Source of the DNA: Rhizodiscina lignyota
Taxonomy: Eukaryota; Ascomycota; Dothideomycetes; Aulographales; Rhizodiscinaceae
Length of the DNA: 64,000 nt
Direction: 5' to 3'
Assembly: GCA_010015805.1 (NCBI GenBank)
Contig: ML978130.1
Location: 372,001-436,000, forward strand
Position 1 is the stretch's first letter, and each line of letters starts with the position of its first letter. The notes beneath the pieces are model-generated. The model ran no database searches and had not been told where the DNA came from. It was given only the letters and a program-made list of their open reading frames with translations. The position numbers and the translations under genes were made by a program. This document shows positions 30,247-48,007 of the stretch, in pieces.

Positions 30247-32026
30247 ATGGCGCCCTCTTTCTTTCGTTTCATCTTTCTTTGCTTCCTGTATCTGAGCAGT
30301 TCATCTCTATCGCTCGCACAAAGGACACCAAGAACACTTGGTTTCCGGCAGCTGCCAGTATTTACGAACAGTTCTACCACCTCCAACCAGACGTCGACGA
30401 CTAACGATGGCCTGCCACCTCCAACAGACTTACCTTCTCTGACTACTTTGATTACCGTCTTCCAAGGAATTACTGTAACAGATGCTGTGAGTCTTGTTAT
30501 ACCTCCCACACGATTGAAATCTTTCTAATGCACTGCGAAGCTTACCATCGAAACCTTGTCGGGGGTGCCGGAAGGCACCACCACTACAAGCAAGGACGGA
30601 ATTACCTTTCCAATCATCATTGGGCCTGGTGGCATTGTTGCTGGTAGGTCCTCAGTGTCGGAGTAATGTTCGATCCGCAAGCAACTGACGTAACGCAGAG
30701 CCCGTTGACCCCGCGGGTCTTCCACCCGGCTTTCCTCCAATTCCGCCTCCAGGAAGTGGTAATAATGGTAATAATGGTAACGACGGCAACGCTGGCAACG
30801 ATGGCAACGATGGCAACGATGGCAACGATGGTAATGATGGTAACGATGGTAATGATGGTAATGATGGTAATGATGGCAACCCGTCGACAGCCAGCAGCAC
30901 GCAGACCACCGAAACGCAATCCTCGACCTGCTCTGACGCCACTGTCACCGATGTCTCCGTGTCCTGCGTCCAGGTTACTGGTGCGTCAACGGCCTTCTGC
31001 ACGACCGCCCAGATAACAACGAGCGGCTGCTCCATTCAAGCGACGACGACGACAGTCACTTCAACAATTTCGATCACAGAAGATGATACCTTGCTCGGCG
31101 ACTCCGATCCCCAGCCCGCGAATGCCAGTCTCGCGGACGAGACAACCTCGTTCCCGACGGAAGAGAGGACAATTGACGCACCCGGCATCACTTTCAGCAC
31201 ACCGGCCTCGAATACCTCCGGCCCCATTTCGCTGACTACTATCACGACCAACGGCCAAACATCGATATGCAGCGACGCCGGCGTGCCTGGCATCGGCCAG
31301 GTCTGTCACGGTTCAATCCCAGTCTCCGCCCTCCCAACTTTTTCGCTCAACACTACATCTTCCACGCCCACGGATCCCACCGGTCCTACTATCACTACTA
31401 CTACTACTACAGAACCCGCCATCGTGAATGCAACGCTCTCCACTATTTCCCTCACAATGACTACAGATCCGCCTCCAACGACAACTCCAGTCACGACAAC
31501 TCCCGACATGACAGCCACTGACGCCCCAACTAGTACTACTGAGGTGGCGACGGCGCTGCCTAGCTTCTGCGGAGGCCAAATCTTCGAAGAATCCCCGTTC
31601 GATGTCCCCTTCTTCAGGATGGTCGGCGCAGACGGAAATGTATACGCTATTCAAGCCTTCCTGCTACTGATGGCCGGCAACATGTGCTCAGGGAGCTGTT
31701 CGGTCCCCAGCCAGATACCACCGGCTTCTGGATCCGCCTCTGGCGACGGCACTAACTGCCACATCTTCGTGAAGTTCGCGCAGAATCTCGCTGGCCAGGT
31801 TTTGATGATCTCGAACACCGACGGAAATACCTGCAGCACAGACGTCGATACGATTATCAGCGATTGCATAGTCCAGCCATCCACATCGTCCGGCCTGTAT
31901 GGAGGGACCCTCGGAACCTCCTCCGGCGCGATCTACGAGGTGAACTTGTTCCCGGCAGATGTCGCAGACGCTCAACAGTTCATTGGAAATCTCCAGCCGA
32001 TACCGTTGGCGGAAGCAACAAATTAA
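30247..32026 (+). CDS. secreted Ser/Thr-rich protein with Gly-Asn-Asp repeat
   Basis: Three exons (30247-30486, 30541-30643, 30699-32026) give 556 aa. MAPSFFRFIFLCFLYLSSSS...LAQ is a signal peptide. After an N-terminal Thr-rich part and 'VPEGTTTTSKDGITFPIIIG' comes a Pro-Gly bridge and about 40 residues of near-perfect GND triplets. Next is a Cys/Thr block (CSDATVTDVSVSC, TAFCTTAQITTSGCS) of the type found in fungal cell-wall and chitinase-linked proteins. A very Thr-rich region rich in TTT and PTTT follows, and then a C-terminal globular part with 'FCGGQIFEESPFDVPFF' and six further cysteines. No GPI tail is obvious. It is probably an O-glycosylated wall-associated or secreted protein with no known activity. 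The triplet repeat should vary in length between strains. Confidence 0.75.
30758..30880 (+). repeat. 9-bp minisatellite encoding Gly-Asn-Asp
   Basis: About 13.7 copies of GGyAAyGAy in frame with the host gene. Early copies vary (GNN, GNA); later ones are uniform GND. Confidence 0.95.
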
Positions 32027-44760: not shown

Positions 44761-44864
44761 CTTTCCTCTCTTCCTCAACTCTCCTTCTCTCCTTCGTTGA
44801 ACTTGCAAACAAAATTGTGCTGGCCACATTTTTTTCTCACCAACTCTCATCACACAAACCAATT

Positions 44865-44933
44865 CTCACTACCAAACCTCCAAACACCTCACCTCCAACT
44901 CTCACCACCTCACCTCCAAACACCTCACCAACA
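44865..44933 (+). repeat. CACCTCACCTCCAA-type short repeats in the 5' leader
   Basis: The leader of the orphan gene contains several imperfect copies of CACCTC(A)CCTCCAA directly before the ATG. They are pyrimidine/CAC-rich and free of ATG, so scanning ribosomes would reach 44934. Confidence 0.7.
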
Positions 44934-45572
44934 ATGCTCTTCCTCATTCTCCGCGCCCTGGCTCCCATTGCCGTCGCCGATCTCGGCTTGTCCGAGTTCG
45001 GCAGGGCTGTGTTCGACTACCTCCTCCTCGCCCTCTTCCTCCTACGCCTCCTTCTGGCTTTCGGCTGGCCACTATCAAAGGCCATTCACTTTCTCGCTGC
45101 GGCTGGCAGCCGCTACGCCGTCGTCTACACTCTCGCCGCGCTCGGCATAACCATCTATCACGGCGACCCGACCCCCGAACACCACCACACTCCTCCTCCA
45201 CCACCACCACCAATCGACTACGACTACTTCGGAGAGGCAGAGTGCGATATGAGCGAGGAATTCATCAACGGGTACTTCTGCATCCAGCCTCCTCACTACC
45301 GCAACGTTCGCGTCAGCGGGTCGTGGTACCGCCTTCCGTCCATGTGCGACAGGGTCGGCTGCCGTCACCACGGCGCCGACAAGGTTGCATACGGAATGGG
45401 AGGGGGTAATGCGACCTTCGCTGATGAGGACCCGGTAGTGGGGAAGCTTCGCTTGCAGAGGCGGCCCATTGTCAACATGCGGACGAAGGAACGAGCACGC
45501 CGGCGCGCGTTGCTCGCGGGAGAGAGCAAGGCGTGGAGGGACGAGGACGTGATCCGCTGGATCCGCAACTAG
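44934..45572 (+). CDS. orphan membrane protein with polyproline stretch
   Basis: 212 aa, single exon. The start at 44934 follows a TATA box and an ATG-free leader; the frame is open upstream to 44817 but without any ATG. The N-terminus has hydrophobic segments (MLFLILRALAPIAVADLG; VFDYLLLALFLLRLLLAFGW; YAVVYTLAALGITIY), then His/Pro runs (EHHHTPPPPPPP), then a compact acidic/Cys part 'GEAECDMSEEFINGYFCIQP' and 'MCDRVGCRHHGADK', and a basic tail 'RTKERARRRALLAGESK'. I do not recognise the family. GC-rich third positions and a strong promoter argue that it is expressed. It is followed directly by the 110-bp repeat array. Confidence 0.6.
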   Translation: MLFLILRALAPIAVADLGLSEFGRAVFDYLLLALFLLRLLLAFGWPLSKAIHFLAAAGSRYAVVYTLAALGITIYHGDPTPEHHHTPPPPPPPIDYDYFGEAECDMSEEFINGYFCIQPPHYRNVRVSGSWYRLPSMCDRVGCRHHGADKVAYGMGGGNATFADEDPVVGKLRLQRRPIVNMRTKERARRRALLAGESKAWRDEDVIRWIRN

Positions 45573-45620: not shown

Positions 45621-46520
45621 GATTGAATTGAAACTCCGCAATCGCGTGCGGAGCTTGCTCTCTTGAACACTTTGACTTTACTATGATGCTTGAACTTGTG
45701 TGATGTCAGGATAGAAAGGATTCTATGCCTAATTGAATACAGCCTGCATACGTGGCTGTGGAGCCTGCCTCTGTCATACACTTTGCTTTCGCTGTAAAGC
45801 TTAAGGCTTTGCATTGTAATGGTGTAGCTGATACTGCGTATAATTGAATATAACCTGCGTATATCGCTGTGAAGCCTGCCCTTTATAAACAATTTGCCTA
45901 GTAGTAAGCTTAAGGCGCTACATCATAAAGCTCAACCGGATTCCCAATGCGATTGAATACTACCTCCATATACGCCGGCGAAGCATGCTCTCTGAAACTT
46001 CTTCGCCTAGCGTTGAAGCTCGAGTCTTGTATTGTAAAGGCCAACCGAACTCCAGATGAGATGGAATGCGACCTTTGATAGATATAGCGGCGAACCGTTC
46101 TCTGTATAAATAGTTTGCCTAGTAGCAAAGCTCAAGTCTGTATGATCAAAGTCAACTGAACTACCAGTAAGATTGAAAGCTAGACACCTTACCTTGTGAA
46201 GGTCAACTGGAATCCCAATATGATTGAATGCTACCTCCACACACAGCAATGAAGCATACCCTTCACAACCACCCTGGCACGGTGAAGCTTAAAGGCATTA
46301 TATTGCAAAGATTAAACGGACTCCACATGGGATTGAATACTACCTTCGCATACAGTGGCGAAGCATGCTCTGTATAACCGCTTTGCCTAGTAGTGAAGCT
46401 CAAGGTCTTATATTATAAAGGTTAACCAAACTCCCAGTAGGAAGGAATGCTACCTTTATACACAGTGGCGAAGCGTGCTCTTTATAAAATGTATCGCGAT
46501 GAGCTTCGAGTCTTCGCACG
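45621..46520. repeat. degenerate tandem repeat array, about 110-bp unit
   Basis: Units begin with an aligned GATTGAAT-like block at 45621, 45731, 45842, 45951, 46060, 46171, 46222, 46331 and 46441: spacings 110, 111, 109, 109, 111, 51, 109, 110. Conserved blocks in each full unit are GATTGAATRCTACCT, GAAGCRTGCTCT about 30 bp on, TTTGCCTAGTAGTGAAGCT, and a TTATATTATAAAGG-like block followed by YAACYGRACTCCCAGTA. The sixth unit has lost its middle. Copies differ at a fifth to a third of positions, so the array is old. 110 is not a multiple of three and stops occur in all frames, so it is not a coding repeat. Confidence 0.9.
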
Positions 46521-46522
46521 GC

Positions 46523-48007
46523 TTATAAAACAACACTTCCCATTCCAGCTCTCTCCAAGTCCTCAGCATCTGCGTTTGGACTTGGTAAGACGCCTTCCGC
46601 GAACTTCTCTCTCGCATCATCAAGGCGTCCATACGCTTTGGGATTCTTCTTCGGCTCTCCCCTACCTTCTGATTTGAACTGGTACCCGCGTACTCTTGGT
46701 CCTTGTCCTGTCGTATCCCGGAGCTCCGGTTCGTAGTACTTTTCAAATGCAGCTTTATCCTCTTCGAAAGTGTCTTTTGCAATGCTCTTTCTCACCCCCG
46801 CAAAGAACTGATCCAGAATGCGATGATTGTGAATCTGAAGGAGTACCCACGCAAGCATCTCCCGAGCTGAAAGAAGATGATGCAAGAATGCTCGATGGTG
46901 ATTTCTGCAGGAGTAGCATTCACAACTTGGCGCCAGAGGAGAAGTATCAGCAGCATGCTCATCAAGCCAACCGTCCGTTCCGAGTGGTTTCGGAGAGTTT
47001 CCGTTCACTTGGGAGGGAGGAGGAAATTCGAAATCGAGTGCAATACCGGCATCCGTCGCAGTGCCGATGAATGGTACAGTAAATATGTCAACACCCAACG
47101 AGATTTCGAGCAGGAGTTTCGTCGGACCGTTGGGTTCAGATAAGGCCAGTCGAGGCAATGCTGATAACTCTTGCGGTATATGAAGCAGAGATTCGGCATC
47201 ATATACCGTGAAACCCGAAACCTGATGTTTTAAATCATCGTCTAGGAGCTGATTTATGTAGTACGACTGAAGCTGGCTCTCGATCGGCAAGATTGGCGCA
47301 AAGATATGGGGAAGTGACCCTTTCTCTCCGTCGTCGTCTTGACAATATTGTATTAATGTTCTCGTCCACGCGCCTGTTCTATCTCCCATCTTGTCAATTC
47401 GTTTCGAGCTGATTTGTCCCTTATCATACATGATATCGGCTAATCCAACCGCAATATCGGGCTTTAACCGCTGAACAGCTGCCGCGTAGTCGGTGGCATC
47501 CACCTGTCGGAAACCAACCGATGTCAAAATCGACACTGCTGTATTTGTATTGGCTTTTGCACATGGCACTGGTGGCGTTCGTCGCGCTCCGAGGATGGTC
47601 AGGATGTCATGTGGAAGACCGCAGTAGCTCGTCAATGGGCTCGCATTGTTTAACGATGGGGTCTGGAATATCGGGGGAACTGCTTCAGGGGATTTCTCTA
47701 TAACTTGGAAACTTTAGCCAATGTCTATATCAGCCTGGAGTTCCAGGAAGGATTCGCAAAGCCTACAATCTTCCAGCGCAAGGTATACTCCACCAAGGCT
47801 CGTTTTCGCGTGGAGGTTGTCTGGTGAGAGATGCGGAACCACCCCCCGCGAAGTATTTCCAATGAAACAAGGTGTATCAATTATTTTCTTGCCCGGCAAT
47901 GCAAGCCTCCCAAGCCTTGGAGCAGCTGCAGTCGCCGCTTTGAGAATCGTAAAGGCGAGCATCTCGTCCGGGAGTTGAGTAAACTTTGCAGGAATCTGCG
48001 CGGCCAT
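46523..48007 (-). CDS. QTRT2: queuine tRNA-ribosyltransferase accessory subunit 2
   Basis: Two exons (47767-48007, 46523-47703), 473 aa. The 63-bp intron is a multiple of three and contains the in-frame TAA at 47714; removing it joins 'GGVYLALEDF' to 'IEKSPEAVPPIFQTPS'. Family motifs are 'GARRTPPVPCAKANTNTA', 'ILTSVGFRQVDATDY' and the zinc site CECYSCRNHH with a following 'LLSAREMLAWVLLQIHNH'. QTRT2 pairs with the catalytic QTRT1 to exchange guanine-34 for queuine in tRNAs with GUN anticodons; it is usually on the outer mitochondrial membrane. It lacks the catalytic Asp nucleophile of the QTRT1 subunit. It implies that this fungus can modify tRNA with salvaged queuine, which many yeasts cannot. 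It is divergent from the thymidylate kinase gene. Confidence 0.9.

Follow-up and report, generated by a model that had tools for sequence, protein, structure and literature searches.

The stretch of DNA analysed here, a window of 64,000 nucleotides on contig C10 of Rhizodiscina lignyota (33.4 Mb in 29 contigs, the genome searched throughout), carries a run of similar blocks about 110 bp long between the converging ends of an orphan open reading frame and the QTRT2 gene. This raises the questions of whether the blocks constitute a genuine tandem array, how such an array came into being, and whether anything other than its manner of origin is needed to explain its nearly constant unit length.

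A diverged tandem array between convergent genes

The array occupies 45624-46512 of the window, i.e., 889 of the 950 bp between the stop codons of the orphan ORF (44934-45572, plus strand) and QTRT2 (stop at 46523, minus strand), which converge upon it. Of its nine members, seven are full units (109-111 bp), the sixth is a 51-bp remnant and the ninth is truncated, with start-to-start spacings of 110, 111, 109, 110, 110, 51, 109 and 111 bp. The first-pass annotation had given nine units and one 51-bp unit at a spacing of 109-111 bp; the spacing stands, but the count does not, as the nine include the remnant. The members and their neighbours are as follows:

44934..45572, plus strand: orphan ORF of 212 aa, the left neighbour, ending 51 bp short of the array
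45624..45733, plus strand: unit W1, the most diverged full unit (profile and register)
45734..45844, plus strand: unit W2 (profile and register)
45845..45953, plus strand: unit W3 (profile and register)
45954..46063, plus strand: unit W4 (profile and register)
46064..46173, plus strand: unit W5 (profile and register)
46174..46224, plus strand: remnant W6 of 51 bp (58-bp gap against a full unit on contig C1)
46225..46333, plus strand: unit W7 (profile and register)
46334..46444, plus strand: unit W8 (profile and register)
46445..46512, plus strand: truncated last unit W9 (profile match reaching 46512-46515)
46523..46571, minus strand: coding end of QTRT2, present on contig C1 too, joined to the copied array (alignment)
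46523..47635, minus strand: QTRT2 (PF01702), last exon as an open frame, right neighbour, 100% identical to the R. lignyota protein record

The orphan ORF is single-copy in the genome, has no Pfam match and retrieves only itself from the protein collection; it is either a lineage-specific gene or no gene. Directly upstream of its ATG, at 44859-44929 of the window, is a 36-bp repeat in two copies that are 88% alike.

The array is real: its homologous units run head to tail with a regular period, beyond chance expectation. Comparison of 45621-46520 with itself gives an identity of 0.374 at a lag of 109 and of 0.45 at a lag of 380, against a maximum of 0.335 at any lag from 20 to 399 in 200 mononucleotide shuffles of the same interval, such that this check, which the first-pass annotation had proposed, places the similarity at a lag of about 110 bp above every shuffle. 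In windows of 300 bp, identity within the array rises to 0.59 (lag 380, the strongest) and 0.467 (lag 109), the corresponding shuffle maxima being 0.36-0.38 (15 shuffles, one 10-kb stretch). Further, an nhmmer search seeded with a single unit recovers the remaining members, all called in register; the weakest, W1 (E=0.014) and the 51-bp remnant (E=0.056), both become stronger on iteration. The array escapes the second check proposed, Tandem Repeats Finder, at scores of at least 40, its units being too diverged. Because its gaps are lenient, a table of pairwise unit identities, in which shuffled pairs average 63%, is given no weight in arguing for homology. The lag of 380 corresponds to about four units minus the deleted stretch; the similarity at this lag hints at a later event, after the first multiplication, that duplicated a block of about four units.

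A partial copy with a scrap of QTRT2 on contig C1

One related locus was found in the genome, at about 3532148-3532882 of contig C1. The 900-bp array query gave two matches within 3532205-3532832 on that contig, and finer comparison extended the locus; a search with the contig C1 copy returned the same two loci only, and all eight matches of a consensus dimer lie inside the two arrays. A 34-place pattern allowing up to three mismatches, a scan that catches only part of the known units, gave six genome matches, all in the two arrays, and none with the reversed control; a gapped pattern without mismatches gave no genome matches. Because DNA search of the genome is weak near 70% identity (the arrays and consensus of a second family, described below, did not return the partner array 4.2 kb away), the mismatch-tolerant pattern scan is the main basis for the figure of two loci.

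The two arrays have their right ends in common: the truncated unit and, after it, the end of QTRT2, which on contig C1 is a scrap of about 48 bp of coding sequence reading DFERAGMGSVVS*, where the gene itself reads DLERAGMGSVVL*. Of the 59 proteins at the head of a list of 120, the query's own among them, many have a QTRT2 tail with a similar ...DLE..G... ending and some have unrelated tails; the scrap therefore belongs to QTRT2, and the copying ran from contig C10 to contig C1. The right-hand part of the array was thus carried as a copy from beside QTRT2 to contig C1. There, it is flanked by convergent ORFs, namely a putative transporter-like frame on the plus strand, so named from its sequence, and a 216-aa frame on the minus strand.

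RIP-like mutation of the two copies

Across the best-aligned 387 columns, the window and contig C1 copies share 305 identities and are separated by 77 substitutions and four small indel events (1-2 bp). Read from the window to contig C1, C>T and G>A make up 49 of the substitutions and the opposite transitions 11, with transversions accounting for the other 17. The C-site changes in this direction affect 33/54 CpA, 6/39 CpC, 6/24 CpG and 4/54 CpT sites (16/117 for all non-CpA sites); in the reverse direction, they affect 8/28 CpA sites and 3/103 sites in the other three contexts. The RIP indices of the contig C1 copy (product 1.6, substrate 0.71 and composite 0.89) lie beyond the thresholds stated in an excerpt of PMC7882544 (product >1.15, substrate <=0.75 and composite >0), and those of the window array (1.03, 1.3 and -0.27) do not pass them. 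Of 775 windows of 650 bp taken from 264 kb, i.e., the 64-kb window and the sample described below, a single one passes in full; it is L019:651-1300 (contig C1:1500651-1501300), with a product index of 1.87 and a substrate index of 0.63.

Going by these base changes, both copies show a CpA-biased C-to-T signature attributable to RIP, strong on contig C1 and less so in the window. When 43 C>T or G>A differences are polarised by W1-W5, these units agree with the window at 22 and with contig C1 at 15, with six ties, which would mildly favour change on contig C1. Genes for DNA methylases (PF00145), candidates for a RID-type RIP enzyme, are present at three places in the genome, and the distant relatives of one of them are named SAM-dependent or DNA cytosine-5 methyltransferases; we infer that a RIP enzyme lies behind the mutation.

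Unit length, unit number and conservation

On contig C1 the counterpart of the W6 remnant is a full unit, the alignment of the two showing a 58-bp gap. Beyond this point five units, counting the truncated one at the end, are present on contig C1 versus three in the window; hence, two loci of one genome differ in unit number, with two more units on contig C1 in the corresponding stretch. The first-pass annotation had entertained selection on spacing. With 58 bp of one unit missing, two units fewer and four indels of 1-2 bp relative to contig C1, such selection is therefore unsupported for the window array. Tandem copying leaves a near-constant unit length when substitutions outnumber indels, and selection on spacing is not needed to explain this near-constancy. 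Both the age of the array and the direction of the gain or loss of units are what we infer.

Old divergence with slow turnover, the other suggestion made at the outset, is supported. The units are weakly conserved: taken together, the 14 from the two loci give 8 invariant columns out of 116 and a mean column identity of 66%. The 'conserved islands' noted at first are present, but in the form given they are common to few units only: GATTGAATRCTACCT occurs at 45951, 46222 and 46331, and TTATATTATAAAGG is confined to the eighth unit.

A second family with a 110-bp period

As a base-rate control, 20 stretches of 10 kb (200 kb) were drawn from contig C1; adding the window and the 24 kb surrounding the contig C1 copy gives a survey of 288 kb. 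Self-similarity over 150 bp reaches at least 0.48 at 21 rows, 13 of which lie outside the arrays discussed here and repeat at a multiple of three, as for putative coding repeats. The remaining eight comprise the window array (three), the contig C1 copy (two), a two-copy 119-bp repeat in L017 and two arrays in the stretch L025. Two other repeats, both perhaps coding, are a two-copy repeat of 111 bp (37 codons) with 82% matches at L020:8240-8462 and a 9/18-bp tandem repeat, TGGTAACGA, of about 14 copies at 30757-30880 of the window, its period a multiple of three. The L025 arrays are:

contig C1:2704478-2704914, plus strand: array at about 4478-4914 of L025
contig C1:2700221-2700402, minus strand: array at 221-402 of L025

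Both have a period of 110 bp, and they are mutually inverted and related (BLAST E=9e-11); a mismatch-tolerant genome scan with their core gave four matches, there only, and none with the control. The four complete units differ from each other at 30-43 of 108 positions without gaps (28-40% diverged), and the two partial units carry gaps. The plus-strand array is located beyond the end (4047) of a 335-aa plus-strand ORF, with overlapping ORFs on both strands to its right, where the right-hand ORF is uncertain; the other is beyond the 3' end of a 456-aa minus-strand ORF. Short strings shared by eye had pointed to kinship between the window and L025 units, which we rejected upon the failure of both circular pairwise tests (p=0.06 forward and 0.31 for the reverse complement) and profile tests (p=0.55 and 0.25; 120 shuffles).

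A second family of this period within a 200-kb sample, showing no relation to the window unit in pairwise or profile tests and with four complete units that diverge this far free of gaps, would fit a window array drawn from a class in which the manner of production or upkeep holds the unit at about 110 bp, whatever its sequence. However, the families number only two, the window array does change its length (by the 58-bp deletion, two units and indels of 1-2 bp), the partial L025 units carry gaps, lags of 109 and 110 are not enriched in the 288 kb with the known arrays masked, and conservation lacks a 10-12-bp periodicity. We consider this origin of the window array unlikely. A genome-wide class of degenerate arrays with unrelated sequences beyond gene 3' ends, their period of about 110 bp set by a fixed-length process, appears similarly improbable, and we doubt that the period shared by the two families has a common cause.

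Mobile, coding and functional alternatives

As originally proposed, the unit is not a coding repeat: its period is no multiple of three, and the four array ORFs compared with Pfam have no match above the cut-off. A decayed coding repeat was likewise rejected, the matches of these frames (three on the minus strand and one on the plus strand) all being below the cut-off (DUF2408, E=0.0084; Npa1, E=0.016). Derivation of the unit from the end of QTRT2 or of the orphan gene was also discarded, since local alignment of flank to unit was no better than with shuffled sequence.

A relic of a transposable element, or of its internal tandem repeats, could account for the presence of a copy at a second locus, and for its RIP mutation, as seen in mobile DNA. 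Yet there are only two loci, the copied segment ends inside the QTRT2 coding sequence and not at an element end, and no Pfam domain exceeds the cut-off; the many copies, own termini and encoded proteins of transposable elements are absent from the array. Neither Pfam, Rfam nor the genome copy number of two loci points to the known transposon that the first-pass annotation had named as a competing explanation, and we regard such an origin as very improbable. A functional 3'-end or RNA element between convergent genes (a terminator, a small-RNA source or spaced binding sites) would suit the position between two gene ends at both loci, but it is highly unlikely given that the array has no Rfam match and no consensus RNA structure across 11 units (grounds on which an array of structured ncRNAs was also rejected), that its columns are weakly conserved and that one unit is mostly lost.

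A probable old minisatellite, copied and mutated

We are fairly confident that the array is an old degenerate minisatellite between gene ends, which is decaying and has been partly copied and RIPped. Long ago, a stretch of some 110 bp lying between convergent genes would have been multiplied in tandem, probably via unequal exchange or slippage, and a block of about four units may have been duplicated later, as the lag of 380 suggests. The array would then have decayed through substitutions, small indels, one 58-bp deletion and the gain or loss of whole units. Later still, its right-hand part and about 48 bp of the QTRT2 coding end were copied from contig C10 into the gap between convergent genes on contig C1, and RIP would then have mutated this copy and, less heavily, the original. 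No function of the array is seen, nor does this history require one. The failure of the window array to pass the RIP indices and the only mild polarising result are points against this history, and reading the array as a decaying minisatellite leaves the 110-bp period of the second family unexplained.

Like minisatellites or locus-specific satellites, the array has head-to-tail units of near-constant length with the most diverged full unit at its edge, a block similarity suggestive of multi-unit exchange, and a difference in unit number between two loci; unlike them, its window units are too diverged for Tandem Repeats Finder. It resembles RIP-mutated duplications of Pezizomycotina in the CpA-concentrated C-to-T changes on both copies, stronger in one, and departs from them in that the copied segment is below 0.8 kb and itself consists of tandem repeats. 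In contrast to centromeric or subtelomeric satellites, with their large arrays on many chromosomes, it is found at two short intergenic loci. No reports of such arrays were found among the literature titles and beginnings of abstracts listed.

Its wider interest would hinge on the 110-bp period of two apparently unrelated families in 288 kb being more than coincidental. For this genome, the locus offers a small case history of an old minisatellite, its partial copy and the RIP marks on both copies, in which the direction of copying can be told because the copy carried along a scrap of the neighbouring gene.
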